IMG/VR virus record: IMGVR_UViG_3300037101_000089
Location: 1-32,240 of that record
Length of the DNA stretch: 32,240 bases
Reading direction: 5' to 3' (one strand)
Origin: a virus
A model generated the notes under the pieces. That model was not told the origin of the DNA. It ran no database searches and saw nothing but the letters and a program-made list of their open reading frames with translations. Shown here piece after piece: positions 8,011 to 28,918 of the stretch; the first letter of the stretch is position 1, and each line of letters opens with the position of its first letter. A program made the translations under genes and the position numbers.

Positions 8011-10566
8011 CTACTTGGAAAGGCACTCCCAGACCCCGTTATTGCGGAACGCCAGCGACCCGCTGCCGCCGCCGGCGCACGGCTTCGCGTTGCTCCCACA
8101 GTCGGTGCAGTACACGAGCGAGTTATTGGTCGTACCCAAGTTGCCAAAGCTCACGGGCGTGAGAATCGGCGTTCCGATAAACGATGTGGCGGTGATGTTT
8201 CCAGCTTGGGAGCCATCGTTAATCACCGCCATCACAGCATTCGATTGCGGAAACTGCGGCGACCATCCAGCCACATGAACGGTCCCAAACGGCAGAGCCA
8301 CGTACCGGTTCGTCGCCCCACTGCCACCGAACGCCAAGAAGATGAAATCGGCCTGCGACGGAGTGTTGTGGAACATCGTGCCGGGAATCGCATTCGGCGA
8401 CTCCACAAAGAAAATGGATGCGCCGACGGCGCTCGTGTAGTCGATCTGATATCCGGTGTTGTTCACCATCGTCGCTGTACAGTTGCAACTCCCGCCGTTC
8501 AGTTTGATCGCGGCAGCCGTCGAGTTGACTACATTGCCCGAAATGAATTGTCCCGGTGCCCTGATTTCCAGGGCGGTCGGGCCGGCGAACTGCGATGCGT
8601 GCAGATTATGCGTACCCGATCCGGTGTCGATCAACATGCCCCATCCGACCGACGAGGTTGCTTCCACCTGCGTCCCGTCGAACGAAGAATTCGAATAGAT
8701 CCCGCCGTTTGAGTTCAGGTACGTGTTCAGATTCGAGATGTGGCCATTCCCGTTGTAGGCCGCCGAAGTCTCAACCCGCAAGCCCCATCCTCCGTTCTTG
8801 TACAGCACCACGTTCGTGAACGTCGAATCGTGCGGCCCCCGGAACGTCCACCCATTGCTGCCATTGAACATTGAACGGATCTCGGTGAAATAACCCTCCA
8901 AGTCCGTATTCGGCGAGGCATACGTCGAGTCGATACCCCACTCGGTGTAGATGCCGTCCGAGTACGCGTTCTGCACGGTCACATCGTGCAGATATAGGCC
9001 ATGCCCGTACAGGCGGATTCCGTAGCTTACTGCCGCCTGTCCCGACTTGTTCGCATCGAACGTGCAGCCGCTAATCTCGCTGCGGAAAAGGCCGTATGGA
9101 CTGTTCGCCCCGGTGAGAGAGGAAAAGTTGACCTGCGAAACGAGGTCGCGGTTAGATCCGTTTGCCAGCCGGATTGTGGTCAGGCCCGAACCGGCACAGT
9201 AGAGCTTGCCGACGCCGGTTGGATCGGTCGTCGAATCGCTCAATAGGATGCCGGCGACCGTGTGCGTCCCGGCTCCGAAGTATAGCGCCTCGCCCTTCGG
9301 AATCGTAACGACGGATGCCAGCACGTAGTTCCCACCGTCGGCGCGCACTTCCTTCGCCCCCGAGGCCAACGCGGCCGTGAATGCCGCCGAGTCGTCGGTC
9401 GCGCCATCGCCGAGAGCGCCGAAGTCCCTGACGTGCACGAAATCTCGCAGCTTGTCGCGCGCACCCCGATTCATCGCACCCGTTCCGTTCGCCTGGAAGT
9501 ACAGGTTCTGAAGCGCCGCGCCACGATCCGTCATGTCGGTCAGGTTGTTGGTGGTGTTCGCCACCCCAGTCGGCAACTGGCCCCATGCAGCGGCCCCGGA
9601 GATCTGAGAGAAGGTGTAGTCACCGGCCTGTGCGTTCACCGCACCCGTCCGCCCGAATACACTCAGTACGGTCGCCGGTGGCAGTGTGATCGGCTGCCAT
9701 TTGCTCGCCGCCGCGCTCCATCCCAGATACTGGGCATCCGCCGGTGCTGTTGCCGCCACTGCGCGGCCTTGCAGGGCCACTACGGTATTCGCAGTCGAAG
9801 CGCCCGTAACGTCGCCGTTCAGCGTTCCGCCACCCCCGCACAGCGGGCACGTAATCGTATTACCCGCCCGTGAGAGCGGCGCTGAGAATGTCAGAGGACT
9901 CTCGTAGAGTCCGGACAGCGCGCTCAGTGCCCGTGCGTTGGTGAAGTACTGGTTCGTCCCTTCAGGCACCTGCGTTGTTGTGTAATCGCCAGATTGCGCC
10001 ACCACGGCACCCGTGCGCCCGAACACGCTGGTAACCGCCCCAGTTCCGCCCGTGATGTTGAGAGTCGATGGCATCCAACTCGACCCATTCCACTGCGGGA
10101 CCTGTCCGAGGGTCGCGCCGCCCTGGTCCATCTGCGGCCATAGGACTTTCCACGACGGGCTTGGCGGCGTCGAGGTTATCTCAACCGTGCCAATGTCCAG
10201 GGCTGTGGTATTGGTGGGCACGAGCCAGTAGCGTGGTCCCCACGAATACTGACCTACTGCTCGTCCGCTGACGGTCTGGTTCGGCACGGAGCATGTCACT
10301 CTGTAGTATTGGCCGGATGGCGTGGCGCTGTCCGTGGGCGCCAGGGCTGCAGAGAATGAGCCGCCGGAGAAAGGCACCACCATGGGTACGCCCGTGACGC
10401 GCCAGCCAGTGGCCGCGCTGAATGGCCCAACGGCCTGAATCGAGCACGATCCGGAAAGCAGATCGCCGGCGGGATCGGTGATCGTACCAGTCACCGTGGT
10501 CGTCTGCGCGGCGGCGCTTGCCGCTACCAGTAACAGCAGAATGATGCGCGTCTCTTTGATTGTCAT
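8011..10566 (-). CDS. Tailspike/tail fibre with pectate-lyase-like beta-helix and signal peptide
   Basis: ATG 10566 is preceded by GGCGAG and lies just after the stop of the tail tip gene, giving 851 aa. Residues 1-21 (MTIKETRIILLLLVAASAAA plus Q) form a classic signal peptide, which is odd for a phage tail protein. An Ig-like beta domain follows (~22-140). Two copies of a tail-fibre motif VFGRTGAV-x-AQ-x-GDYT appear near residues 181-195 and 303-317, with a LNGDVTG segment between. From about 375, HVRDFGALGDGATDDSAAF marks the Pectate_lyase_3 type right-handed beta-helix, which extends to ~760 with many N-G and N-N turns. The Cys-rich C-terminus (YCTDC, then WECLSK) may be a trimerisation or capping element. 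Such proteins bind and often cut surface polysaccharide. Confidence 0.82.
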   Translation of the reverse strand: MTIKETRIILLLLVAASAAAQTTTVTGTITDPAGDLLSGSCSIQAVGPFSAATGWRVTGVPMVVPFSGGSFSAALAPTDSATPSGQYYRVTCSVPNQTVSGRAVGQYSWGPRYWLVPTNTTALDIGTVEITSTPPSPSWKVLWPQMDQGGATLGQVPQWNGSSWMPSTLNITGGTGAVTSVFGRTGAVVAQSGDYTTTQVPEGTNQYFTNARALSALSGLYESPLTFSAPLSRAGNTITCPLCGGGGTLNGDVTGASTANTVVALQGRAVAATAPADAQYLGWSAAASKWQPITLPPATVLSVFGRTGAVNAQAGDYTFSQISGAAAWGQLPTGVANTTNNLTDMTDRGAALQNLYFQANGTGAMNRGARDKLRDFVHVRDFGALGDGATDDSAAFTAALASGAKEVRADGGNYVLASVVTIPKGEALYFGAGTHTVAGILLSDSTTDPTGVGKLYCAGSGLTTIRLANGSNRDLVSQVNFSSLTGANSPYGLFRSEISGCTFDANKSGQAAVSYGIRLYGHGLYLHDVTVQNAYSDGIYTEWGIDSTYASPNTDLEGYFTEIRSMFNGSNGWTFRGPHDSTFTNVVLYKNGGWGLRVETSAAYNGNGHISNLNTYLNSNGGIYSNSSFDGTQVEATSSVGWGMLIDTGSGTHNLHASQFAGPTALEIRAPGQFISGNVVNSTAAAIKLNGGSCNCTATMVNNTGYQIDYTSAVGASIFFVESPNAIPGTMFHNTPSQADFIFLAFGGSGATNRYVALPFGTVHVAGWSPQFPQSNAVMAVINDGSQAGNITATSFIGTPILTPVSFGNLGTTNNSLVYCTDCGSNAKPCAGGGSGSLAFRNNGVWECLSK

Positions 10567-10582: not shown

Positions 10583-13500
10583 TTACGAGTAGATGAAGAC
10601 TGAAAGGTCTGAGCCAGGAAACGTGGTCCCCACCGCAGTGATTCCGATGGAAACCGCCGTGTTGGCCGGGATCTGGGTAAGAGCCTTGATCTGCGATGTT
10701 GTGGCAACTACCGCCGTCTGGCCAGCAGAAATCGTCATTGATAGCCAGGCTGCGCCGCCTACATAGATCGTGAACGTGATGCCCGAACCGGTGGGCGCCG
10801 CCTGCACGTAAGCCTTCACGTCGCCCACCGTGACCGGACCATTCAAGTAGAGCGGCTGGGCCGCATTGGATTCGATGCCCAACGTGCCCTGCATCTGGAA
10901 CACCAGGCCAGCAACCTTGGAGAGCCCCTCCGCGCCGAAGATCCAGTCCTCGCGGATCGGCTGGTCGCCGTCTGGAGACTCATTGCCGTTCACGTCCACC
11001 GTGAAGCCGGCGATCAGCAGTGTCTCGTCCACGAAATTGCCGGTCGGCATGTTGATCGTGGTCACCGCCAGCGGGTTGCCGTTATCGAACGAGGTCGTGT
11101 CGCAGGAATAGGGCCAGGTCGGCTCTTCGATAATCCAGACATCGCCGGGATTGATCACCATCGGAAGGTCCCACGTGATGCTGGTCGCCGTATTCGCGAC
11201 GATCTTCCGCGGCGGCGTGCCGCGCGACGCGCCCTGAATCACGCGAACGAGGTTGCCGACCTCCGCGCCAGGCGTCATGCCGTTGGGATAGACACCGCTC
11301 TGCCAACCGGAATCCGTGATCGAGGTCGGGTTGCTGGCGTTCGAAGCGTCCGCAGTAAACCGCAGTGCAATGCAGTCGCCCGCCTGCACGATTCCGTTGG
11401 GGTCCGGGGTCACACCGACAGTGCCCGTGGTCTGGTCCCATGAAGTGACCTTCCCACTGAAGAACGGCGTAGCGCCTTCCGGCCGCCCGATGACCGAGAT
11501 GAAGCGTCCAACTGGGGTCCAAGTTGGGTTTGTAGAGGGCGGCGGTTCTTGGAACGATCCAACCACAAGCTGGCCGGCGGAAACACTCCAGACGGAATCC
11601 CCGATGATTCCGCTGTGTCTCAGGTGCTTGGCCTTCAATCGGACCTTGCTGACGTAGGGCGACGGCAGTGCCCATGTCGAGCGCACCAGCGGCCCCGCGA
11701 ACCTGATTGAGCCGGGCGTGTAGGTGTTGTTCGCGCCCGCCGTCAGCGCTCCGGTGGCCTGCGCGCAGATCAGATCGTCCTGCGTCGCGACGAATAGCAC
11801 GTAAGAAACGAGGCCCGCGACCGCCGGCCAAGTGATGCCTTCCAACGTGAACGTGTCCGTTCCAGAGGCCGAGGTTCCGATGATGGCTATATTCGACGGG
11901 GCCGAAGGAAGCCCGCTTGAATCCATCGCGCAGATAGCCACGCGCAGCGTCGCGTTGGCTGGCAATGATCCGCCCGTCGCGGACTGCGAGACCGATCCGA
12001 TACCGGGCGCACCCGCGCCGGTGGCGCTGAACTCGTTCACCGGCAGCTTTCCGGTCACCACCAGGTTCGCAAGCATGCTGCCGTCGGCCATCTGTGCGTA
12101 GGACTGGTCGGTGTCGAAGGTCCACTCGCCCGGAAACAGCGCGTCATTCGCCGCCGCCTGCACCTGGTACGGTGCCCACGCGGGGCCGAGCGGGATCGCA
12201 TAGTACAGGGCCGGCAGGGGCGCGGGCACCACGTCCATCGGCTTCGGGCCAACGTCCAGGTCGTACATCGATTCGGTGACGGTCTGCCCCTCGATCTGCA
12301 CCGACCAGTCCTTCTTCAGGCTCCATCGCTGAATGCGGAAGCACATCGTGATGACCTGGAACGAATGGCCGCTCCCGGATGGAGGCGCTGGCGAGGTGGT
12401 GATCGTGGAACCGTCGCTGCCGACGGCGGTGATCGTCACCTGGGCGCCGCCGATCACGATCTCCTTGTTGACCAATTCCGAATTCCCAGTCGCGGCCCCG
12501 GCATAGGTCCAAGGATCGCCGCTTACCCACGTTGCAGTGCTGCCGGAGACGTTGCATGTGCCATGGAGGCCGGGAACGTCTGGGTGGGTCATCGAGACCA
12601 CTTGCCCAACCTCGTTGCCGAGGCCGAGCAGCGTCGTCTGCCACGCCGCCGTTCGCGCGTCGCGCCATTCGGCGGGAGTCACGCCGCCGACTTCTTCGCG
12701 TGTGCGCGTCGCCGCGATCCGCAGCGCTTGGCTGAGCGACGAACAGCCCACCGAGTGCATCTGAGTCGTGAGCGGAGATCCGGCGCGCCCGTAGTAAGCC
12801 GCGTGACTCTTGTCGCAATACTCAGCCGTGTTCGCCTGGTACTGATAGGCAACATCGGCGAACGAAAGCACCAGGTGCTCGAAACCAGACTGGATCGGTG
12901 TCAGCCGCAGAGTTTGAAACAGAGAGTTCGCGAGCGTGTACGCATCCACCGCGCTGGCGTTGATCCGGCAGCCGACCTTCAGCTTCCCGAACTCCCAGGT
13001 GTAGAAGCCCAGGCAGCAGTTGAGCACCTCGGTGAGCCAGTCGCGGAACGGCTTCTGGCTGCTGATGACGCCCTGGAATTGGAACTGGGTTTCGGTGCCC
13101 TGGACGCTGGTCTCCGTGACATACCCAAGCGAGAGCGCCTGCGCAATCGACATGGTGGTTTGCACTCCACTCCCCTCCGGGGGCGGTGGGGGCGGGCTGG
13201 TCCAATACGAAAACGAGTAACTGCCGTCCGGATTGAGATTGATCTGCGGAGCGGTGAGCGCCTCCCCTGCGGTGGTGAGAGCATAGTTCACGATTGGCGA
13301 CGTGACGCCCAGGATCGGGGTCACTTGCGTCGCCGCGATCTCGGCCGCGCCGCTTCCATCGCCCACAATCAGCGACGGCAGCACGAACGTAGCGAGCTGC
13401 GCGGACGACGTGGGGCCGGTCCCGCCAGCCGGGTTCGATCCCGTGGACGGATCGCCGTACAAGCCCATCGCACGCAGCAGCATGTTGACCGCAATCCAAA

Positions 13501-15214
13501 ATGGATTGATCAGTCCTTTGACCCCGGTGCGGTTGCCGTTCTGGTCCCAGGTCCAGCCCCACATCCCGTAGTCAATGGGGACGGTCATCTGGTGCTGCTC
13601 AGGAGTGCTCGGCTGAATCGTGGTGGACTTGACGATTCGAATCTCGCACGCCGCAGTGCCGGCCGCGTAGACATTCGGCTCCCAAACTTGCGGCGATCCC
13701 TGACCGAGCGAGAAGTAGTCGCTGCTCGGGTTCGCCGGGTCGCTGCCGGTGACGTAGCGGAGCCCCATGCCTGGTTGGTATTTCGTGATGTTCAGGTTGC
13801 CATTGACCGCCAATCCCTGCCAGAGGTACCCATCTACCATCGGAGCGACCACGTATTTGTAGCCATCCGCGTTCGTGACGACAGCCGAAGGAGTGAATCC
13901 ACCAAGAGGCCCGGCGCTCAGGATACCGAGCGAGTCGGCGTAGCCCGACTCATCGCGGTAATCCACCATCAGTGCGCTAGCCATGAACGCATAAAGCGGA
14001 TTGCCGCCCGAGTTGCACCAGATCTCCGGCAGCGCCAGCCCCCAGACCGTATCCGAGATGATCGAAGTCGCCGTGACGGTGTTGCGGCCGAAGCCGAGGA
14101 AGCCGGTGGAATCGTCTTTGATGACGACGCCCTGCGGGTCGGCCTGCTGCCCGCCGAAATAGGGCGACATACCGTGCACCTGGCAACCGTTCGCCGATTC
14201 GAGGTAATAGTCGCAGCTTGTTGGATCGCCGCCGCCAGCAGTCACCGCCGAGGCACTCCGCCCCTTGCTGGCCCACGGGCAGCTCACGCCGTCGTTGTAG
14301 GTCTTCCAGCACTGACGGCTGACTTGCCGCTCGGGGTACTGGTTCATGATCTGGAAGAACCCGTCCGAGCACGTGACCGGGAAGATCGGCGTCCCGTCGC
14401 TCGTGAAGTTCTGGATGACACCTTTCCAAAGCTGGAGCATAATCCCGGAGTTGACGTGGAAGAGGCACAGGTCGATCTCGGCGTACTTCAGGTCCGTATC
14501 GTTCGCAAGCTGCGTCATCACGCGGTCGCCGTTGCCGAACGTGAAGCGCACGTTGTCCGATGTGCCTTTGATGTCCTGCGAGATCAGGACGTCAGAACCC
14601 GGCTCGCCGATCCCGATGAGGCGCGGCAGATATAGTTGGCCACCCACTGTCACGCGCCGGTCGGAGACATAGATGTCGGGGACCGCGGATTCGCGCACAC
14701 GGATGTGGACCAGCGGGACAATCTGCTGGACTTCGGAAAGCAGGGCGGTGGAGAGTGCGGTCGAGGGGAATCGCAGACAGGTGGAGTTGACGGTGTAGCT
14801 GGGCGCCAGCGTCGGATCGACAACCTCGATGAAGTTCAGTCCGACCTGTACGGCGGTGCGCAGGTACTCGAACGAGATCGGCGCCTGCTCGAAGGTGACG
14901 AGCACGCTCGTGGTCGAGCCACCGGGATTGGGGACCGTGTAGGTGAACGCCTTCCACGGTCCCTGCAAGCCTTCCCAGAACGCCTTGATCTGGTTCGTTT
15001 CGGCCCAGTTCAGGTTCTGGTGCTTGAACTGAAACTTCCGTGGGCCGATCCCGACGTAGTATCGCTGCTCCTGCTTGGCGTCGAGCGAGCCGAAGCGATG
15101 CACGATGACCGGGCGTTCGACGGAGAAGCCGAACGGGTACTGCGTGGTGAGCGGGAAGGTCTGGCCCGAGTTGATTACCGTGGGGACGGTGATGCGACCG
15201 ATCATGTCCGACAT
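10583..15214 (-). CDS. Tail tip protein: fused lambda M/L/J-like hub
   Basis: This 1543-aa protein starts at ATG 15214 (ATG 15205 is an alternative). Residues ~1-131 resemble lambda gpM-type distal tail domains (AETNQIKAFWEGLQGPWKAF, ending in NFIEV). Residues ~140-355 resemble gpL: C302, C312, C334 and C344 followed by YFGG reproduce the four-cysteine pattern that binds an iron-sulphur cluster in lambda gpL. The middle (about 640-1000, including PFRDWLTEVLNCCLGFYTW) is like the central hub of lambda gpJ or the gene transfer agent tail tip. The C-terminal third has fibronectin-like and beta-sandwich segments, including LRVAICAMDSSGLPSAPSN. It should form the distal tip that contacts the cell. 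Assigned by pattern and position between tape measure and spike. Confidence 0.8.
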   Translation of the reverse strand: MSDMIGRITVPTVINSGQTFPLTTQYPFGFSVERPVIVHRFGSLDAKQEQRYYVGIGPRKFQFKHQNLNWAETNQIKAFWEGLQGPWKAFTYTVPNPGGSTTSVLVTFEQAPISFEYLRTAVQVGLNFIEVVDPTLAPSYTVNSTCLRFPSTALSTALLSEVQQIVPLVHIRVRESAVPDIYVSDRRVTVGGQLYLPRLIGIGEPGSDVLISQDIKGTSDNVRFTFGNGDRVMTQLANDTDLKYAEIDLCLFHVNSGIMLQLWKGVIQNFTSDGTPIFPVTCSDGFFQIMNQYPERQVSRQCWKTYNDGVSCPWASKGRSASAVTAGGGDPTSCDYYLESANGCQVHGMSPYFGGQQADPQGVVIKDDSTGFLGFGRNTVTATSIISDTVWGLALPEIWCNSGGNPLYAFMASALMVDYRDESGYADSLGILSAGPLGGFTPSAVVTNADGYKYVVAPMVDGYLWQGLAVNGNLNITKYQPGMGLRYVTGSDPANPSSDYFSLGQGSPQVWEPNVYAAGTAACEIRIVKSTTIQPSTPEQHQMTVPIDYGMWGWTWDQNGNRTGVKGLINPFWIAVNMLLRAMGLYGDPSTGSNPAGGTGPTSSAQLATFVLPSLIVGDGSGAAEIAATQVTPILGVTSPIVNYALTTAGEALTAPQINLNPDGSYSFSYWTSPPPPPPEGSGVQTTMSIAQALSLGYVTETSVQGTETQFQFQGVISSQKPFRDWLTEVLNCCLGFYTWEFGKLKVGCRINASAVDAYTLANSLFQTLRLTPIQSGFEHLVLSFADVAYQYQANTAEYCDKSHAAYYGRAGSPLTTQMHSVGCSSLSQALRIAATRTREEVGGVTPAEWRDARTAAWQTTLLGLGNEVGQVVSMTHPDVPGLHGTCNVSGSTATWVSGDPWTYAGAATGNSELVNKEIVIGGAQVTITAVGSDGSTITTSPAPPSGSGHSFQVITMCFRIQRWSLKKDWSVQIEGQTVTESMYDLDVGPKPMDVVPAPLPALYYAIPLGPAWAPYQVQAAANDALFPGEWTFDTDQSYAQMADGSMLANLVVTGKLPVNEFSATGAGAPGIGSVSQSATGGSLPANATLRVAICAMDSSGLPSAPSNIAIIGTSASGTDTFTLEGITWPAVAGLVSYVLFVATQDDLICAQATGALTAGANNTYTPGSIRFAGPLVRSTWALPSPYVSKVRLKAKHLRHSGIIGDSVWSVSAGQLVVGSFQEPPPSTNPTWTPVGRFISVIGRPEGATPFFSGKVTSWDQTTGTVGVTPDPNGIVQAGDCIALRFTADASNASNPTSITDSGWQSGVYPNGMTPGAEVGNLVRVIQGASRGTPPRKIVANTATSITWDLPMVINPGDVWIIEEPTWPYSCDTTSFDNGNPLAVTTINMPTGNFVDETLLIAGFTVDVNGNESPDGDQPIREDWIFGAEGLSKVAGLVFQMQGTLGIESNAAQPLYLNGPVTVGDVKAYVQAAPTGSGITFTIYVGGAAWLSMTISAGQTAVVATTSQIKALTQIPANTAVSIGITAVGTTFPGSDLSVFIYS

Positions 15215-18033: not shown

Positions 18034-21000
18034 TCACGCCACCGTCAATCCGGGCAACTGCATGTTGGCCGACTGTTGCGTTCGCCCGTAGCTGGAATAC
18101 TGCGCCGCCATCGCCTGGTCGGTCACGAACTGCGGCGTGACGAACTGGCCGGTCATGAAGTTTGCGGCATCGTTGCCGCTGATGTTCAGCGAGAGGTACG
18201 TCGCGCCGCTGCCACCTGCCGTGTTGGGGCCACCGGGAGTGGGATAGGTTCCCGCCGCAATGCCGCCGAGCGTCGGAATGTTCGAGGCGTATGCGTGAGC
18301 CTGGCCATCCTGGTAGCTGGCTTGTTGATAGAGCTTTCCGCCCTGCTCCACCAAGCTCCCCGCGTATGGCGTCGTGGCCGACATCGGCATCTTCTGGCCG
18401 GTCGCCTCCGAATACAGCATCACGAGTTGACGGACGCTCGGGGATCGCACGGCCACCGCGATCTGGCCGCCGAACTGCGACTGCGCGATCTGGACCACCT
18501 GCTTGATCGTGCCGCTGTTCTGGGGAATATCGATACCGTAGATGCTCTTGATATCGTCGTGTGCTTCCCTCTGCGGCGACTTGACGCCGGCTATCATCTC
18601 TCCGATACCAATGCCGAAACCGGCAGCGCCGCCTATCAGCGCGCCCAATGGGCCTCCCATCTGGAACCCGATGGCCGCCCCGCCAGCCGTCCCTTCCGCT
18701 GTGCCCGTCCATGTGCCACGGCTGTTCCCGAGCAGCCCTTGTTGCGCCAGCATGGTGCCGCCCGCCAGCATCGCGGCCCCGGCCACGCCACCTACACCCG
18801 TGATCTTGCCGCCGGAATCTCCGGTCTGGACGTCGTTGCCGTTTTCATCCGTGCCGTAGGTCGGATTAGATGGGCTCCGGTTGAAGCTGCCCCAGTTCGT
18901 GCGCTTGAGGTTACTGACGATTCCCGCCAGACCGCTCGGCCCGCTCCCACCACTCGCGCCGCCGCGCGCCCCGCCGCCGAACAGCATCGCCATCGGATTG
19001 AATCCGCCCGTCCCACCTTGCGCCCGGTTCAACGTCGGCACCCCCGCCGATGCGCCGGACCAATCTCCGCCGCCAGCAGCCCAAGGAGCGGGAGTATAAC
19101 CGCCGTTGGCAGCGCCGGACAAAGGGTGATCCGTCCCCGCGGCCCCCGCCCCACCGCCAGCCGCTCCGGAACCGCTACGCGTGGCACTGCTGAACAGCAT
19201 TGCAATCGGGTCGATCCCGATACCACCGGAACTCCACGCGGCCGGGGAGTAGCCGCCCGCCCCGATAGGTGCGCTCATCTTGGCCGGCGCTGAGATCGAT
19301 GGAATGGAAATCCCCAAGACGCCAGCAGCACCGGCGGCACCACTCTGCAAGGATGGAGCAGCCACTCCCATTCCTGCGGCCAGGATAGCCGTCAGCGCCG
19401 CCATCACCGCGCTGTTTTGCATGGTCGCGGCGGTGTTCTGGTCGGTGGACACGCGCACCGGGTCCTGCTTGCCGCCCTTGAACACACCAGCGAGCCCGCC
19501 CTGCCCGTCCGCGCCGTAAATGATCGGATGGAGGACGTTCGCCGCCATGCCGCCCAGCGTCTCGGTCACCGGCTTGAGCACCGCGGCGTGGACCGTACTC
19601 AGCAGATCCTTGCCGAAGTTCTTGGGCTTGGTGAACAGAACGTCGATCAGCTTTTCTGCCTGCTTCTGGAGGCTGTCGAACTGCGACTGGATCTCCTGCT
19701 GGCGTTTCTGCTGGAACTGCGCCTGCTTTTCCTCGAGCTGGTCCTGCGCCTGGGCGATTTCCGTGTACAGATCCTTCTGCGCCTGCGCCGCCAGGACGGA
19801 GCGCTTCGCCGCGTTCTCTTCTTTCGATATCCGTTCCGCTTCGATCCCCGCCAACTGGACGGCCAGATCGAGCCGGATCTGGTAGGCTTGCTGCGCCGCT
19901 GCTTCTTCCTTTCGCGCCGATAGCTCCCGCTTTTCGGCCTCAGACATCGCCATCGGCGTCTCCTGGGTGACGGTCAGTTCCGCCATGCGCGCGGACCGCG
20001 CGGCGCGCCGCCGCAATTCATCGCGCTGCGCCTGGACTCCGATGTCCTCGATCCGTTCCTGCGCGGCGAAGCCTTCCTCCCACTCCTTCATCTGCTCTTT
20101 GCTCGGCATCATGAGTGCGAGCATTTTCTTCTGCTGCTCGGCCGCTTGCTTGTCGGCGTACTTTTCGAACTCCTCCCATGCCTTTTTCGAGAGCACGGCC
20201 GCCTGCTCGTCCGCCGCCTTGCGGATCGCCGCAATCTCCGATTCCGACGCCTTCACCTTCGCGGCCTGCTGCAGAAGCTGGTCGCGCTGATAGTAGATTT
20301 TGCCGATGGCATCGAGCTCGGCTTCATCGCCTTTCTTTTCGAACTCGGCAGCCTGGCGACGGAAATCCTTGAGTTGCTCCGCGCCCTTTGCCACTGCGTC
20401 CAATGCCGCCTTGCGGCGCGCCTCGGTAGCTTCCGCAACGTGGAGTTGTTGGCCCAGGTCCTGCGCCTGCGCCTTCGTCAACGGCTTGTCCGGTTCGAGC
20501 AGTTGCTTCTGGAGCCGCTCGACATCCTTCTTGGCATCGGCATAAGCCTTCTCCATGCCGTCGTGCGTGCCGAAAAACCGGGCGCGAATCCGATCCGTTT
20601 CTTCCTTGCCTGCACGCAGATCTGTCCGCTTGGTGGCTGCCTCGGCATCCGCCAACATCTTCTGCAACTGCTGGATTTGGCCCTGGATGTCGCTCGCGCG
20701 CTTCGCTCGGGCCTCCTCGTCGCGGGTGGGCGCAATCGCTTGCAGAATGCCGAAATCGCCGACCAGCCCTTGCTGTTGGGCCCGCAAATCCTCGATGCGC
20801 TTCAAGGTGGCATCGCGGTTCTTCATGATGTCCGGCGCCCGGCGCTCCAGGTCGGCCACTTCCTGGCGATGACCGGAGATCGACATCTTCGCCCCGATGC
20901 CGCCCGCCGCCCGAATGTCGGCGGCATCCTGCATCGCCTGTTCCTCTTCGCGGCGCTGCCGTTCATCGTCTCCGGCGGTGCTGATGTTATTTAGGAACCA

Positions 21001-22113
21001 ATCGACGCCCTTCCCGACCCAGGTAACGGTGACCACCAGCCCTTCTTTGAACTTGCGGACCAGCGCGTCCCACTTGGTTTCGAGCACCGTCACTTCACGC
21101 TGGTATTCGGCAAAGCGGCGGATGTCGTCCTCAGTAGGCCCGAACCCCTGCTCGTGGGCGACGCGCAGGTTCTCGTTGAGTTCCGTCATGAACGGAATCG
21201 CCTCCACGCCCACCTTTTTGAACAGGTCCATGGCTGCGGCGTCCCGCTGAAGGCCTTCCGGAAGCTTGTTCAGGCCCTCGGAAATCTCCGTCAGGATTTC
21301 AGACGTGGGTTTCATCTCTCCGGTGGCGGTGTGGAAATCGATGCCCATCCCGCGCAAGGTGGCCCGCGCCTTTTCGCCTTCCCTGGAATTGTCGTCGGCT
21401 GCCTGGGACAAACCACGCATCAGGCGCTCAACAATCGAGATGTCCTGTCCGACCGCGCGCGCCGCGAAGCCGAACTGCCCGACTTCCTTGGCAGTCAAAC
21501 CGGTGCGCAGCTCCGCGTCCTTCACGCGGGTGCCGTATTCGCCGAGACTCTTTGCCGCCTCGAATGCGGACGCCGCAATGGTGCCCAATACAGCAGCACC
21601 AGCCGTGACGGCAATGCCAAAGGGACCAAGAGTCGTCAGCACGGACGAGAGTGCGCCCTTCGCTCCCTGGAGCGGGTTCTCCATGAACTGGCTGACCCGG
21701 TCGCCGAACGAAGTGATGGCCTCGGACTGCTTTCGCAATGCCTCTTCGGCTTCCTTCGCCGCCTTAACCGCGAGAGCTTCGCGCGCGGCCTTTTCCTCCA
21801 TGGCGATCATCTTTTCGTAAGATCTGGTGATCGCGTCGATGGCCTGCGGCTCCCGGTTGTATCGTTGGAGAAGCTGGTCCCGCTGGGTGATCAGCCGCTC
21901 CACGCCGGACTTGCCATAGGTCTCGGCCTGCTTTTCGAGGGAGGCAATGAGCCGCTGGACGCTAGACCGGGTCTGATCGGAAATCCGGATGACCTTGCCG
22001 TGCGAGGACTCCGCTTTCTTCTCGAAGCCGTCGAGGGCTGCGTTGGCCTTGTCCGTTATCGGGGTGACCTGGTCCTCGGCTTCGAGGATTACGCGTTCCG
22101 CTTGGTCTGCCAT
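18034..22113 (-). CDS. Tape measure protein
   Basis: ATG 22113 directly abuts the stop of the upstream gene; the protein has 1359 aa. The N-terminal third has the usual tape measure features: alpha-helix, a hydrophobic segment (GPFGIAVTAGAAVLGTIAAS near residue 175), then KEVGQFGFAARAVGQDISIV and LRGMGIDF, typical of siphophage tape measures. Residues ~370-850 form long charged coiled coils rich in Glu, Lys and Ala. The C-terminal ~450 residues are Gly/Ala/Ser-rich with further hydrophobic stretches (for example GGPLGALIGGAAGFGIGIGE). The protein sets tail length inside the tube and is ejected with the DNA. At about 0.15 nm per residue, the usual rule, the tail would be about 200 nm long. It is the longest unfused phage gene except the tail tip. 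Confidence 0.93.
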   Translation of the reverse strand: MADQAERVILEAEDQVTPITDKANAALDGFEKKAESSHGKVIRISDQTRSSVQRLIASLEKQAETYGKSGVERLITQRDQLLQRYNREPQAIDAITRSYEKMIAMEEKAAREALAVKAAKEAEEALRKQSEAITSFGDRVSQFMENPLQGAKGALSSVLTTLGPFGIAVTAGAAVLGTIAASAFEAAKSLGEYGTRVKDAELRTGLTAKEVGQFGFAARAVGQDISIVERLMRGLSQAADDNSREGEKARATLRGMGIDFHTATGEMKPTSEILTEISEGLNKLPEGLQRDAAAMDLFKKVGVEAIPFMTELNENLRVAHEQGFGPTEDDIRRFAEYQREVTVLETKWDALVRKFKEGLVVTVTWVGKGVDWFLNNISTAGDDERQRREEEQAMQDAADIRAAGGIGAKMSISGHRQEVADLERRAPDIMKNRDATLKRIEDLRAQQQGLVGDFGILQAIAPTRDEEARAKRASDIQGQIQQLQKMLADAEAATKRTDLRAGKEETDRIRARFFGTHDGMEKAYADAKKDVERLQKQLLEPDKPLTKAQAQDLGQQLHVAEATEARRKAALDAVAKGAEQLKDFRRQAAEFEKKGDEAELDAIGKIYYQRDQLLQQAAKVKASESEIAAIRKAADEQAAVLSKKAWEEFEKYADKQAAEQQKKMLALMMPSKEQMKEWEEGFAAQERIEDIGVQAQRDELRRRAARSARMAELTVTQETPMAMSEAEKRELSARKEEAAAQQAYQIRLDLAVQLAGIEAERISKEENAAKRSVLAAQAQKDLYTEIAQAQDQLEEKQAQFQQKRQQEIQSQFDSLQKQAEKLIDVLFTKPKNFGKDLLSTVHAAVLKPVTETLGGMAANVLHPIIYGADGQGGLAGVFKGGKQDPVRVSTDQNTAATMQNSAVMAALTAILAAGMGVAAPSLQSGAAGAAGVLGISIPSISAPAKMSAPIGAGGYSPAAWSSGGIGIDPIAMLFSSATRSGSGAAGGGAGAAGTDHPLSGAANGGYTPAPWAAGGGDWSGASAGVPTLNRAQGGTGGFNPMAMLFGGGARGGASGGSGPSGLAGIVSNLKRTNWGSFNRSPSNPTYGTDENGNDVQTGDSGGKITGVGGVAGAAMLAGGTMLAQQGLLGNSRGTWTGTAEGTAGGAAIGFQMGGPLGALIGGAAGFGIGIGEMIAGVKSPQREAHDDIKSIYGIDIPQNSGTIKQVVQIAQSQFGGQIAVAVRSPSVRQLVMLYSEATGQKMPMSATTPYAGSLVEQGGKLYQQASYQDGQAHAYASNIPTLGGIAAGTYPTPGGPNTAGGSGATYLSLNISGNDAANFMTGQFVTPQFVTDQAMAAQYSSYGRTQQSANMQLPGLTVA

Positions 22114-22572
22114 TTACGCTGCCTTGAGCATCACGAAGGGACGAGCCTGAAATGCCGCGAGCACCGCCTGGCGGTCGCGCGGCGATACACCCCACTGCGC
22201 CTCGCGCCGGTTGTTGAAGAAGGCGATCTGCGAAGCCGTCATTCGCCGGCCTGGAAGAGCTTCGTCCAGGAACCCGATCACCGCGCGGTTTTCGTTCGCC
22301 GTCAGTACCTTGAGGCACCGCAGGGTATGCCCGCTCCAAGTCCAGTCGCGGATGGGCTGGAGGCCCCGCGCTGCCTTGTAGTCGGGGTAACCGCGCCGGC
22401 CCGGCAGCCCCGACTTCAGCGGAGCAGCAGCCTGGTCGTAGATGTTCCGTCCGCCCTGAATGCGTGCCCGGATCGAATCCGCTAGCACCTGGGCGAAGCC
22501 CTGCATCTCGGTCGCAGTGTACGGCGAATAGACGAAACGAGCGCTCTTGATAACGGTTTGAAATCGGTTCAT
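22114..22572 (-). CDS. Phage morphogenesis/head-tail joining-like protein
   Basis: ATG 22572 gives 152 aa; its stop TAA touches the tape measure ATG. No clear ribosome site precedes it. The N-terminal helix (MQGFAQVLADSIRARIQGG), the central RDWTWSGHTLRCLKV and the late AQWGVSPRDRQAVL follow a pattern I associate with virion morphogenesis proteins of Mu-like and related phages; that link is recalled, not proven. It was separated from the tail chaperone genes by the plus-strand nuclease gene, so its transcription must cross or restart near that insertion. It could serve in tail completion or as a tape measure partner. Confidence 0.5.
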   Translation of the reverse strand: MNRFQTVIKSARFVYSPYTATEMQGFAQVLADSIRARIQGGRNIYDQAAAPLKSGLPGRRGYPDYKAARGLQPIRDWTWSGHTLRCLKVLTANENRAVIGFLDEALPGRRMTASQIAFFNNRREAQWGVSPRDRQAVLAAFQARPFVMLKAA

Positions 22573-22640
22573 ACACGTTCGGGCACTACTAACCGACGGC
22601 TCCGCAAACGGATCTGGCCGACACGGGGCCGTGCGAGGCG

Positions 22641-22668
22641 TTATGGTGGACAACAGGCGTGCTAGGAT
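22641..22668 (+). promoter_or_regulatory. Promoter candidate for the plus-strand nuclease gene
   Basis: TTATGG (22641-22646) and TAGGAT (22663-22668) are 16 bases apart, and GGTGA (22678-22682) lies four bases before the ATG at 22687. Each box differs from the consensus at two or more positions. A promoter is expected here because the gene faces against the whole late operon. Confidence 0.4.
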
Positions 22669-22686
22669 ACGCTGTTCGGTGACCTA

Positions 22687-23895
22687 ATGTCGACAGGTAC
22701 GCCCCAGACACCGGGTAATCCCCTATTGAAAAGGATTGGCGTTGAGATCGACCGACCCAGTTGGACCGGTCAGTACGCCTTCCCAGGTGAGCTCGCGACA
22801 GCGAGTAGCTTTCCGACCATCAACTTTGCTTCCGCTCTGCTCTGGATGGGCGCCGCTTCCCTAGTGCAAACCGTGCCGCGCTGGTGGACGGCGATCCGCT
22901 GGGCACAGACCAAGTACGCTTATGCAGTCGATGATCCCTCAGACCTTCGTCTGCACCCCGAGATGGTTGATTTGGACAAACATCAGAAATCAGTACTAAG
23001 TGATGAGTGGGGAGTTGGGGTTTCCCTTGAGTGGCTCACGAACATCTTTCAGTACAGTGAAATCTGTCATGGCGACGCCGCGGTTCGCGAGCTCCGCCGC
23101 AGGAAGTTGCTCAAAGGCTATCCGGCGCACAAGAAACTCGGTCCCCAAAAATGCCCTGATTTCGTGGCGATGGACGATCAGCGGAAACTGCACATTATCG
23201 AATGCAAGGGTACGACACAAGGGCGTTCTACGATTAAGCGGGCTTTCAAAACCGCGTATGAGCAGAAGCACGCTATTCGGTTCAAATGTGATAGCGCATT
23301 CGTGTCCCAACGCCTGAGCGTTGGCTTGGCGATTGCGACTGACCGAAGGGCAAAACGGACTACACTCTACATCGAGGACCCCGATGAGGAGCGACCGCCG
23401 CTGTCCGCAGGCAGCTACCTCGTGATCGACGACGCTACGCCCCAGCAGATCGAGGAGGCCATCGTCACATCCATGCTGATCGAGTATTCGGCTCTCGCGG
23501 GAGCGTTCGATGTGCTCGCAACTGCTTCTACCGCCTATGAAGAATTTGATATAGGAACTGTCCTTGCAGGACGTGAGCTACCAACTGAAATGATTGAGTT
23601 CGAGGCGGATGGCGTCAAGTGGGTCGGCCAGCAGTTTGAGGCTTTGAGCCCCGTCGCTCTGAATCCGAACCACAGGCGGAGCGTGATAGCGATACGTAGC
23701 GGGATGTCACGCCAACTGCACAAGTCCTTGCTGGGCCGTCGGGTTTGGCATGAACCCGCGCACCTGATGGGGATGCTTGAGGGTGGTCTGAAGCCTTTGA
23801 AGAAGGACAAATCGGACGAACTTGCGCTGCGCTGTTCCATTCAGTTTGGCAATGGTTTCATTTCAGATCTGAGCATTACGGAGCTTCGCAAGTGA
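22687..23895 (+). CDS. PD-(D/E)XK nuclease-like protein on the opposite strand (cargo gene)
   Basis: This 402-aa gene is the only confident plus-strand gene. It opens with ATG 22687 after GGTGA. The core shows a PD-(D/E)XK site: CPDFV with D158, then KLHIIECKGT with E172 and K174, a strand-strand arrangement typical of restriction-like endonucleases. Before it, HQKSVLSDEWGVGVSLEWL (residues ~99-117) may supply the first helix and an extra acid. The C-terminal half (~200-402) is mixed alpha/beta without a clear family. No methylase or helicase is next to it. It lies between late genes and converges with the zinc-ribbon gene, leaving only 25 bp. It is likely a lysogenically expressed moron, perhaps for superinfection exclusion or host defence. 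The substrate is unknown. Confidence 0.72.
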   Translation: MSTGTPQTPGNPLLKRIGVEIDRPSWTGQYAFPGELATASSFPTINFASALLWMGAASLVQTVPRWWTAIRWAQTKYAYAVDDPSDLRLHPEMVDLDKHQKSVLSDEWGVGVSLEWLTNIFQYSEICHGDAAVRELRRRKLLKGYPAHKKLGPQKCPDFVAMDDQRKLHIIECKGTTQGRSTIKRAFKTAYEQKHAIRFKCDSAFVSQRLSVGLAIATDRRAKRTTLYIEDPDEERPPLSAGSYLVIDDATPQQIEEAIVTSMLIEYSALAGAFDVLATASTAYEEFDIGTVLAGRELPTEMIEFEADGVKWVGQQFEALSPVALNPNHRRSVIAIRSGMSRQLHKSLLGRRVWHEPAHLMGMLEGGLKPLKKDKSDELALRCSIQFGNGFISDLSITELRK

Positions 23896-23920
23896 CCGCA
23901 CGTTCCGGGAAACCGCCTAA

Positions 23921-24307
23921 CTACCGAAGACTTTTGTTGCCGCCGTCCCCAGCCTTGATCTGGTCCTGCCGTTCGGCTTCGATCAGTTCCAGCACCCGGA
24001 ACTCCTCCTCGGTGATGTCCGCGAGCGTGATCGTCAGCCCGATGCTCTTGGCGTTCAGTATTCGGAAGCACCGCCGGACGAGACCGCCGTTCGGCGTGTC
24101 CATCGCCTCTTCGAGCAGGTTCTTCGGACAACCCGGCCCATGGCTAACGTCGATGGCCTTCCAATCCGCGCCGCAACCGGGGCAGCCGTTCAATTCCGTC
24201 TGCGCCGAGTAGCCGCACTTCCGGCAGCGGAAGACGCGGTCGGGGCACTCTTCCTCGGCTCCGCACAGCCCGCCCTGGTGCAACACCGACCGGATCAGGA
24301 ATCGCAC
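23921..24307 (-). CDS. Zinc-ribbon tail assembly protein, possible second chaperone part
   Basis: A GTG at 24307 with GGAAGAG upstream gives 128 aa. A zinc ribbon is evident: C28-x2-C31 and C42-x2-C45 (CRKCG, then GCPGCGADW), plus further cysteines at 15, 21 and ~60. The C-terminus (LADITEEEFRVLELIEAERQ) resembles the second tail-chaperone product that follows the first in lambda-like phages (gpT of G/GT). The frame is open upstream through the stop of the first chaperone, in the -1 frame, from about 24355. A frameshift product is therefore possible, though the overlap window (GACCCGGAATAG) holds no classic slippery heptamer. Separate translation from GTG is equally possible. Confidence 0.55.
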   Translation of the reverse strand: MRFLIRSVLHQGGLCGAEEECPDRVFRCRKCGYSAQTELNGCPGCGADWKAIDVSHGPGCPKNLLEEAMDTPNGGLVRRCFRILNAKSIGLTITLADITEEEFRVLELIEAERQDQIKAGDGGNKSLR

Positions 24308-24957: not shown

Positions 24958-25992
24958 CTATTGGCAGATACCCGTTTGCGGCGTTATGACGGTCATCGTC
25001 ACCAGCCCGTTTGTGGGGTCGTAGAGTTGCACGCCGGTGATCTGGAGCGTCACGATTCCGTCGGTGTTGCTGAGTTCCGCGACGTTGAAGCCCATCTTCT
25101 GAATGAGCATCGTGAACGAATTGTTGGTGTCGCGAGTCACGGTGAAGGTGGCCGTGCCGGTGGTCAGATTGATCAGATTCGAGTACTCGGCCGATCCGGC
25201 CTCGACACGCACGACGAACTGCACCGCGAATACGCGGTCGCCCCATTCGAACCGCCCCTGGATCTGGTAGCCGTCCTGCGCCCCCGAGCCGGGGAAGAAG
25301 CCGGGCCGGAAGTTGTTCTCCCAGGACGCTTCCATGGACACGAAGTCCTTCGCGCTGCTGCCGGCGAGATAGTTGATGCCATTGAAGGTCAGCGCGGTGA
25401 TCATTCCGGCATTGAACTCATGCGGTGAATACACGGCGGGCAGGGTGATTCCGCTGGGCGAGGTGTACTGTCCGGTAGTCACACATTCCGCCGCGATCAT
25501 CGCGCTGGCGCGTCCCGGCGAGTTCTTAATCGACAGCTTCCAGCCCTTGACGGCGCAGCCCACCAGCATTTCGTCCAGCACCGCCGAGCCGCCAGGCCGG
25601 ATCTGCTGCACGAACGAGAAGTAGGGCAACTCCAGGCCGGTCGGATTCGTCGCCCCCAGAGCCGGAATGATGGTGTACGTGTACGGACCGCTGCCGCTGC
25701 CGCTCACGGTCACGTTGCCCAGTGAGAACGCCATCGCCCACGCGAGAATTTCCGACGAAGCGTACTTCGAGAACTCGTAAGTCGGCATGTTGTAATGCGA
25801 CTTGAAGAGCTGCGTGGGGAACTCATGGCCCTTGCCAATTTCAGCGCGGTCGTCCTCGTTCACCGGGACCTTGGCCCACGGCTTGGTATTGAGGTTCGTG
25901 TGCCGCCAGATAGCAGTGGAGGCATTCGCCGTCCCGATGGCGGTCTGTTTGCCGAAGCCCCAGCCATTCAGCAGTTCATTGATGTTTGCCAT
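24958..25992 (-). CDS. Tail tube protein
   Basis: ATG 25992 (MANINELLNGWGFG) with AGGAG upstream gives 344 aa; the longer open frame would run over the small gene before it. The protein is beta-rich with Gly, Thr and Asn throughout, has LPYFSFVQQIRPGGS and KGWKLSIKNSPGRASAM as in phage tail tube or major tail proteins, and ends in a beta segment (GIVTLQITGVQLYD). It should stack as hexamers to form the tail lumen. It occupies the expected slot between head-tail connectors and tail chaperones. Confidence 0.8.
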   Translation of the reverse strand: MANINELLNGWGFGKQTAIGTANASTAIWRHTNLNTKPWAKVPVNEDDRAEIGKGHEFPTQLFKSHYNMPTYEFSKYASSEILAWAMAFSLGNVTVSGSGSGPYTYTIIPALGATNPTGLELPYFSFVQQIRPGGSAVLDEMLVGCAVKGWKLSIKNSPGRASAMIAAECVTTGQYTSPSGITLPAVYSPHEFNAGMITALTFNGINYLAGSSAKDFVSMEASWENNFRPGFFPGSGAQDGYQIQGRFEWGDRVFAVQFVVRVEAGSAEYSNLINLTTGTATFTVTRDTNNSFTMLIQKMGFNVAELSNTDGIVTLQITGVQLYDPTNGLVTMTVITPQTGICQ

Positions 25993-25993
25993 G

Positions 25994-26152
25994 CTACGTT
26001 TTCTCCTGAACCGGAGTTGCCGGTTTTGGGCCAGTGGCTGCTGGCGGGGGAACCTGACGCCACCCGGCAACCATGAGCGGTGTGAGCTCTGCGGCCGTCG
26101 CTTCGACTTCCTTCACTTCGCCCTCGGGCGATTGCATGAAAACCCAATCCAT
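25994..26152 (-). CDS. Small 52-aa protein before the tail tube gene
   Basis: ATG 26152 is preceded by AAGGAG at eight bases. The frame reads MDWVFMQSPEGEVKEVEATA, continues with LTPLMVAGWRQVPPP, and ends at a TAG (25994-25996), one base before the tail tube ATG. The protein has a G-E-V-K-E-V strand, a helix and a G-W-R-x-V strand, and a Pro-rich tail. Small proteins of this shape are common next to phage structural genes, but I cannot assign a role. Strong ribosome site and tight fit support it as real. Confidence 0.7.
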   Translation of the reverse strand: MDWVFMQSPEGEVKEVEATAAELTPLMVAGWRQVPPPAATGPKPATPVQEKT

Positions 26153-27904: not shown

Positions 27905-28918
27905 CTACACCGCCGAGATCACGTTGTTGAAGTAGAAGCCGAGGTCCGCAGAGACCAGGCGCATATCGAACGCCGAGTCGATCTCCACGCGATCCGAAGC
28001 CAGGTGCTCCATGCGGAAAGTCTTGATGCGGACGCCGGCGCCGCCGGTGGTTCCGATCAGGCCCGTCCAGTTGAACACGTACCCGGCGCTGGGGGTCATC
28101 AGGCCGGCATTCTTCGGGCGGTAAAACAGCGCTGCGCTCATGCCGCCGATGAACGCGTTGGATTCGGTTGCGCCCTCCGCAGCCGTGTTGTACACGGCGT
28201 CAATGACCAGGATCTCGTCCAGTTCGAGAATCTCGGCCATGATCTGGCGGGTTGCCACTGCCGGGTTCGGCGCGGTCTGGCCGTACTTGGTGCGGTCGAT
28301 GAAGTCGGGGTGATCCACGAGCTTATCGAACACCGGGCGGCTCACCACGAAGATGTTCGGCGCGAAGCCGCCGCTCGACAGCCGCATCTGGGTCTTCGCG
28401 TTGCGAATATCGGTGATCGGGCTGCCGTTCGGGTAGTTCGCGGCGTCCCAATAGATGACGTGAGTGGAGTCCGCGGTCGCCTGGCCGCTGACGTTGTTGG
28501 TCCAGATCCCGGTGCCGAAGAACCTGGAGACCCACTGATTCTCGCGGCGGATCAGCGCCTTCTGCGTCAGGAAAATGGTGGCGTCGCGGTCGGGGGCGAG
28601 CGGCGAGTCGCTGTTGGAGCGGATCTGGTCATCCACGTCCTTGTGCAGCGACCAAACGTCGCAGTTGTACGTGCCGGTGGAATTCAGGTTGTAGCCCGTG
28701 CCGGCGGACTCGGTGGAAAGCGCGCGCTTCTGCATCTCATCGCGGTTGAAATCCGCCCGCGCGTAAGTGTAGTAGAGATCGCTTTTGTTTTCGACCGGCA
28801 CCGCCGGAAAGGCCTTGTCCGCGACGAATTCGACTCCGGCGGCTTCCTGAAGGTAGGCCACGGAGATGTTCGTCAGCGGTCGGTTGACGTGAACGTCTTG
28901 TAGTGTTGGCTGAGGCAT
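27905..28918 (-). CDS. Major capsid protein
   Basis: ATG 28918 has a strong AGGAG upstream; 337 aa. Typical features of lambda gpE-like/HK97-fold capsids are seen: N-terminal NRPLTNISVAYLQ, YTYARADFNRDEM, NQWVSRFFGTGIW in the middle, NIFVVSRPVFDKLVDHPDFI (a conserved helix-strand unit), ILVIDAVYNTA, and a C-terminal HLASDRVEIDSAFDMRLV stretch. It forms the icosahedral shell with the decoration protein encoded just upstream. Length agrees with the lambda family (~340 aa). Confidence 0.9.
   Translation of the reverse strand: MPQPTLQDVHVNRPLTNISVAYLQEAAGVEFVADKAFPAVPVENKSDLYYTYARADFNRDEMQKRALSTESAGTGYNLNSTGTYNCDVWSLHKDVDDQIRSNSDSPLAPDRDATIFLTQKALIRRENQWVSRFFGTGIWTNNVSGQATADSTHVIYWDAANYPNGSPITDIRNAKTQMRLSSGGFAPNIFVVSRPVFDKLVDHPDFIDRTKYGQTAPNPAVATRQIMAEILELDEILVIDAVYNTAAEGATESNAFIGGMSAALFYRPKNAGLMTPSAGYVFNWTGLIGTTGGAGVRIKTFRMEHLASDRVEIDSAFDMRLVSADLGFYFNNVISAV

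Follow-up and report, generated by a model that had tools for sequence, protein, structure and literature searches.

Why a gene for a putative nuclease should run against the tail operon of a bacteriophage, and what its product may do there, is the question raised by IMG/VR virus record IMGVR_UViG_3300037101_000089, a 32,240-bp fragment (referred to below as the window, the whole stretch that was analyzed) representing part of the genome of a soil-type phage. The gene lies on the plus strand at 22687..23895 and encodes 402 aa plus a stop codon. Its neighbors are all on the minus strand: the tape measure gene (18034..22113; PHROG tape measure match at 1e-8), gene A (22114..22575; mechanical ORF start at 22653), a conserved gene directly before the tape measure gene, gene Z (23921..24307), a conserved Zn-ribbon gene which occupies the tail-chaperone position, gene U, and the minor tail protein (24958-26070) and major head protein (27905-28918) genes. 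The nuclease gene is thus head to head with gene A and tail to tail with gene Z. The original prediction, that it opposes its neighbors and splits the tail chaperone genes from the next tail gene, was borne out, since the gene separates the chaperone-position gene Z from gene A; the order at the matching place in Pseudomonas phage RSP, tail chaperonin, tail chaperonin and tape measure, agrees.

The reading frame is not a chance one, as tblastn detected homologues with E values down to 3e-25. A plausible ribosome-binding site, GGTGA at 22678..22682 on the plus strand, is located 4 nt before the ATG, as had been predicted. The start codon is nevertheless uncertain, because the homologues begin at the equivalent of TTG codon 14 (22726). 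The promoter that had been proposed for the gene was not recovered: a scan covering sigma-70-type promoters found no plus-strand site upstream and one site on the minus strand, and a terminator scan was also negative for this gene. Elsewhere in the window, a plus-strand open frame of 756 codons (12365-14635) was observed antisense to a 1,543-aa ORF (10583-15214); it is probably a shadow frame arising from the GC-rich coding sequence.

The identification of the product as a PD-(D/E)XK nuclease had been based on D158, E172 and K174. These residues are encoded at 23158..23160 (D158, the PD motif) and within 23200..23208 (E172-C173-K174, the ExK motif), and all three were found to be invariant in an alignment of 42 homologues. 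As only 24 of the 402 positions are invariant, the chance that three positions named beforehand would all be among them is about 2e-4. The invariant residues include P157-D158, E172-C173-K174-G175, Q193-K194 and parts of a signature, LDxHQKxxLSDxxGxG, at residues 96-111 (22972..23019), in which D97, H99, Q100, K101 and D106 do not vary. No column after residue 232 is invariant. A profile built without the window protein gave that protein 187 bits over residues 15-239; the match is confined to this region, which indicates a conserved nuclease half followed by a divergent C-terminal half (residues 240-402, 23404..23892).

AlphaFold models of the whole protein and of the nuclease half, built with the homologue alignment, had mean pLDDT values of 83 and 86, respectively. 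In the model, D158 is at the start of a strand (159-163), and E172 and K174 are within a second strand (168-176). After realignment with VIA-align 2, the best structural neighbors had Z-scores of 4.8 (whole protein) and 5.5 (nuclease half), with the aligned rows spanning residues 33-243. These scores are low individually, but the lists consist mostly of PD-(D/E)XK proteins, including EcoRV, HincII, MGME1, Hjc, lambda exonuclease, McrC, LHK-Exo and cap-snatching endonucleases, and the nuclease fold is supported by this uniformity more than by any single Z-score. Foldseek alone gave no match below 0.001 in PDB or BFVD. Together, the invariant residues and the predicted nuclease-like core support the assignment of the window protein as a PD-(D/E)XK-type nuclease, which would act on DNA. 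EcoRV, HincII, Hjc and lambda exonuclease share with it the catalytic D...ExK arrangement and the predicted core, whereas no sequence similarity to the solved members of the superfamily was detectable, and the window protein adds to their fold the invariant LDxHQK...SDD helix and a C-terminal half that matches none of them.

Homologues were found on eight plasmid records (27 to 33% identity, E values down to 3e-25 by tblastn); 47 bacterial genome loci and one additional viral contig (L058) also carry them. The homologous loci, over 50 in all, are distributed over plasmids, frequently large ones, and chromosomes, many of them in cultured bacteria. Most come from Alphaproteobacteria, the others including Burkholderiales, Acidobacteriota and one Lysinibacillus. 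Homologues were absent from 50,697 phage records, and a DNA-level search of E. coli genomes detected none. The dN/dS ratio among close homologues was 0.04 to 0.34, and three copies (L049, L053 and L055) are split by apparent frame breaks. In the family tree the window protein has the longest branch, and its placement is unsure. The window protein had no match above cut-off in Pfam (2025), NCBIfam 20.0 (June 2026), PHROGs, PADLOC-DB 2.0 (2023) or the PDB sequences; the 42 family members gave matches at chance level only with NCBIfam, and two of 8 members touched REase_II weakly (E value of 0.022). The family is therefore unnamed in the libraries searched, and likewise in the open-access literature. 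With so many homologous loci in cultured bacteria and no library name, the nuclease is directly testable.

To place the gene within its own phage lineage, relatives were fetched with genes A and Z as anchors (113 and 85 were confirmed, respectively, and 80 were retained for each anchor). Removal of identical intervals left 79 distinct A-Z intervals, a set that includes the window's own (22576..23920) and a truncated near-copy (L003/L059); the relatives are metagenome fragments and are not fully independent. The A-Z interval varied from 44 to 5,540 bp, with a median of about 1.27 kb. In contrast, the neighboring gaps on the same contigs were short with few outliers, being 32 to 36 bp for U-Z and having medians of 4 bp for A-tape measure, 12 bp for V-U and 96 bp for X-V. 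Rare larger gaps were seen in relatives at X-V (754 and 1,538 bp), V-U (723 bp) and A-tape measure (853 bp), which suggests occasional insertions at these junctions too. Two A-Z intervals were empty: in L213 the end of Z and the start of A lie within a few bases of each other as in a tight operon, and in L106 the terminal part of Z is changed as well.

The remaining intervals contained 110 cargo ORFs of at least 100 aa, which fell into 99 similarity clusters. The window nuclease was found in no distinct interval except its own and the near-copies. In every cargo interval (76 of 76) the GC content was below that of the flanks (0.557 versus 0.623; P = 4e-14), and in 54 of the 76 the longest cargo ORF opposed the late operon (P = 3e-4). 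For the nuclease gene, the GC content was 0.557 versus 0.617 and GC3 was 0.63 versus 0.76-0.86. The proposal that the gene is a moron is thus well supported by its absence from the other distinct intervals, its lower GC content and the exchange of cargo from phage to phage. No conserved motif was seen by eye upstream of gene A beyond the start region.

In the near-identical relative L003 (IMGVR_UViG_3300048503_000078, 8860-8880), the nuclease breaks off after residue 289, where a 383-bp deletion fuses it to the end of Z, and identity to the window is 99.98% on one side of this junction and 97.3% on the other. The junction reflects either recombination in the hotspot or a chimeric assembly.

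PADLOC and Pfam scans identified the cargo as including Dazbog (L176; DzbA, with DzbB at an E value of 1e-4), NsnA with PDC-S15 (L108), AbiU (L109), a type II (L111) and a type IV (L087) restriction enzyme, a KAP NTPase (L068), a TIR-like region (L122) and a viperin-like protein (L090). Other domains were ORC-CDC6, AIPR, HD-CE, PemK, FRG and DUF488, and some of the cargo was toxin-antitoxin-like or of no recognized kind. Of 30 cargo proteins scanned singly, chosen mainly by size, 15 had a PADLOC match at an E value of 0.001 or better and the other half had none, this figure covering cargo only. Multigene cargo combining a methylase with CARF proteins was also observed in the slot, as a C5 methylase with a CARF protein in L075 (1005-5942) and as a methylase with kinase-like and CARF proteins in L066 (671-5845); two of the L075 proteins (346 and 603 aa) had no PADLOC match.

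The P2/P4 hotspots are described as small, high-turnover loci that are flanked by two conserved phage genes and occupied by varied antiviral systems (2022, PMC9122126). The A-Z slot, with its two conserved anchors and known antiviral systems inside, matches a phage antiviral hotspot of this kind, here located in the tail module of another group of phages. The P2/P4 loci are likewise about 1-5 kb in size (PMC9122126), but their anchors lie beside cos or between cI and the integrase gene, whereas here they are tail genes; the phages concerned are distantly related to Pseudomonas phages RSP and KPP23 and the roseophages RDJL, and the longest cargo ORF predominantly opposes the late operon. The A-Z site itself is the main new result. 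The P2/P4 hotspots yielded new defense systems, and the slot, which behaves like them but belongs to different phages, provides 99 cargo families for testing. Half of the singly scanned ones are new to PADLOC, and the conserved anchors A and Z can be searched for in other metagenomes. The phage lineage with this slot is already seen in many metagenomes.

The neighborhoods of the bacterial homologues were also considered. On plasmids, the neighbors included a PaeR7I-type restriction enzyme with an Eco57I-type methylase, a Dcm methylase, a Shedu nuclease, an anti-phage dCTP deaminase and helicase-like, DUF4041 or DUF3320 proteins; one copy sits among insertion sequences. In 24 genomes, matches to two DNA-methylase families were counted within 25 kb of a homologue in 6 of 75 cases against at most 0.69 expected (P of about 8e-5), and within 10 kb in 2 cases against 0.28 expected (P = 0.03), a small excess. 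Integrases showed no clear enrichment, with at least three within 25 kb among the matches listed, counted by eye. No partner gene recurred beside the homologues beyond close relatives, which points to a single-gene unit.

From these data we consider it fairly probable that the gene is an antiviral moron in a hotspot of its phage lineage and that it encodes a single-gene PD-(D/E)XK nuclease which stops other phages. That it might block other phages had been raised in the original prediction; the moron status stands firmly, and the anti-phage role is supported indirectly, because the slot of the relatives holds known antiviral systems and the bacterial homologues sit near restriction genes. The nuclease is probably a weapon against rival phages, given that the cargo slot often holds antivirus genes and that bacteria keep the family near theirs. 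In the proposed mechanism, the lineage would maintain the slot between its two tail genes as a site for such cargo, and upon entry of another phage into a cell that already carries this one, the nuclease would cut nucleic acid and stop the new infection. The competing phage would be the target, and the poorly conserved C-terminal half may be the part that senses or recognizes it. The prediction that no methylase is near was confirmed, as PF00145 and PF01555 had no match in the window, and because no methylase accompanies the gene, the phage would presumably spare itself through a trigger or a difference in target and not through methylation. A more specific version, in which a tail-module antiviral slot carries a new partner-free nuclease family, defined by the PD-(D/E)XK core, the LDxHQKxxLSDxxGxG helix and a variable C-terminal half, and self is spared without methylation, is put forward tentatively. 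The weak structural matches, the negative promoter scan, the lack of an integrase gene in the window, the small methylase excess at 10 kb, the long branch and the half of the singly scanned cargo proteins that PADLOC does not match count against the antiviral explanation.

Four other explanations were weighed, and none fits the distribution as well as the antiviral moron. The gene could encode a free-standing homing endonuclease, a selfish element that cuts cargo-free relatives at the Z-A junction and is copied in by recombination. The nuclease fold, the position exactly between two conserved genes, the existence of relatives with a nearly empty site (L213 and L106) and the recombinant-looking junction within the nuclease gene of L003 would all suit such an element, but no other distinct interval at the A-Z site carries the nuclease, the 99 cargo families of the slot include many that are not nucleases, and the bacterial homologues occupy varied loci, several near restriction genes. 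We therefore regard homing as unlikely. A similarly low probability is given to cargo of another type, such as a nuclease of the host-fitness, plasmid or toxin type that does not target phages; the PemK, FRG and DUF488 domains in the slot and the frequency of homologues on large plasmids are consistent with this, whereas no antitoxin-like partner recurs beside the homologues and methylases are enriched near them.

Slightly less probable again is an ordinary restriction-modification enzyme whose methylase lies elsewhere, either in the phage sequence not covered by the window or in the host genome. The fold itself, the presence of EcoRV and HincII among the structural neighbors, the weak REase_II match of two homologues and a C5 methylase adjoining the homologue in one genome (G006) argue for this, and the window covers just a portion of a genome that may be about 63 kb long; against it are the lack of C5 or N4/N6-type methylases in the window and the finding that no methylase recurs next to the homologues. 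Just as improbable is a nuclease for the lytic cycle of the phage itself, acting in recombination, packaging or the breakdown of host DNA. PD-(D/E)XK enzymes such as lambda exonuclease, one of the structural neighbors, do serve phages in this way, but the gene was absent from the other distinct A-Z intervals of the lineage and from the phage records searched, it opposes the late operon, and bacteria retain homologues of it on chromosomes and plasmids.

As a probable antiviral moron, the gene may be compared with three known systems. Tab of Pseudomonas phage JBD26 is a late-operon moron that gives antiviral protection from the prophage, an 83-residue assembly inhibitor encoded between the terminase genes (PMC10884400). 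Like Tab, the nuclease is encoded by an additional late-region gene that relatives lack; unlike Tab, it is a 402-aa predicted nuclease whose gene lies within the tail module and opposes it. Shedu (SduA) is also a standalone antiviral PD-(D/E)XK nuclease, SduA appeared in the weak Foldseek list (E value of 0.34), and a Shedu gene neighbors one homologue, but neither PADLOC nor NCBIfam gave the window protein a match to a Shedu profile. Card1 and the CARF nucleases had profile similarity to residues 158-229 (Pfam E value of 0.22, PDB E value of 1.2) that was below every cut-off, and no CARF domain was detected in the window protein.

The head protein of the window shares 44 to 51% identity with its counterparts in Pseudomonas phages RSP and KPP23, the roseophages RDJL, Ruegeria phage Tedan and Rhizobium phage RHph_Y60, and near the tape measure gene the genes are ordered much as in RSP and RDJL Phi 2. 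Head-protein searches for the host, run on samples of Acidobacteriota and of the classes to which G009 and G017 belong, gave distant matches only (best, 45%), and gene A had no match in the Acidobacteriota sample. The fragment contains no tyrosine integrase gene, and 9 of 32 contigs searched do; one of the nine, G432, has three such genes, and part of it may be other DNA. A lysogenic state is plausible for the lineage, and the nuclease gene, originally proposed to be expressed from the prophage, may be expressed in that state.

One contig of 85,624 bp (IMGVR_UViG_3300048503_000180; L094 and L077) contains the A-Z module twice, about 63 kb apart and with different cargo (561 and 1,860 bp), which suggests that the genome is close to 63 kb long and that two strains have been joined in this contig. 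In the distantly related roseophage RDJL Phi 2, an annotated N-acyl-homoserine lactone synthetase gene (L228, 12570-13124) lies on the opposite strand between the terminase and portal genes, a similar antisense cargo at another place.
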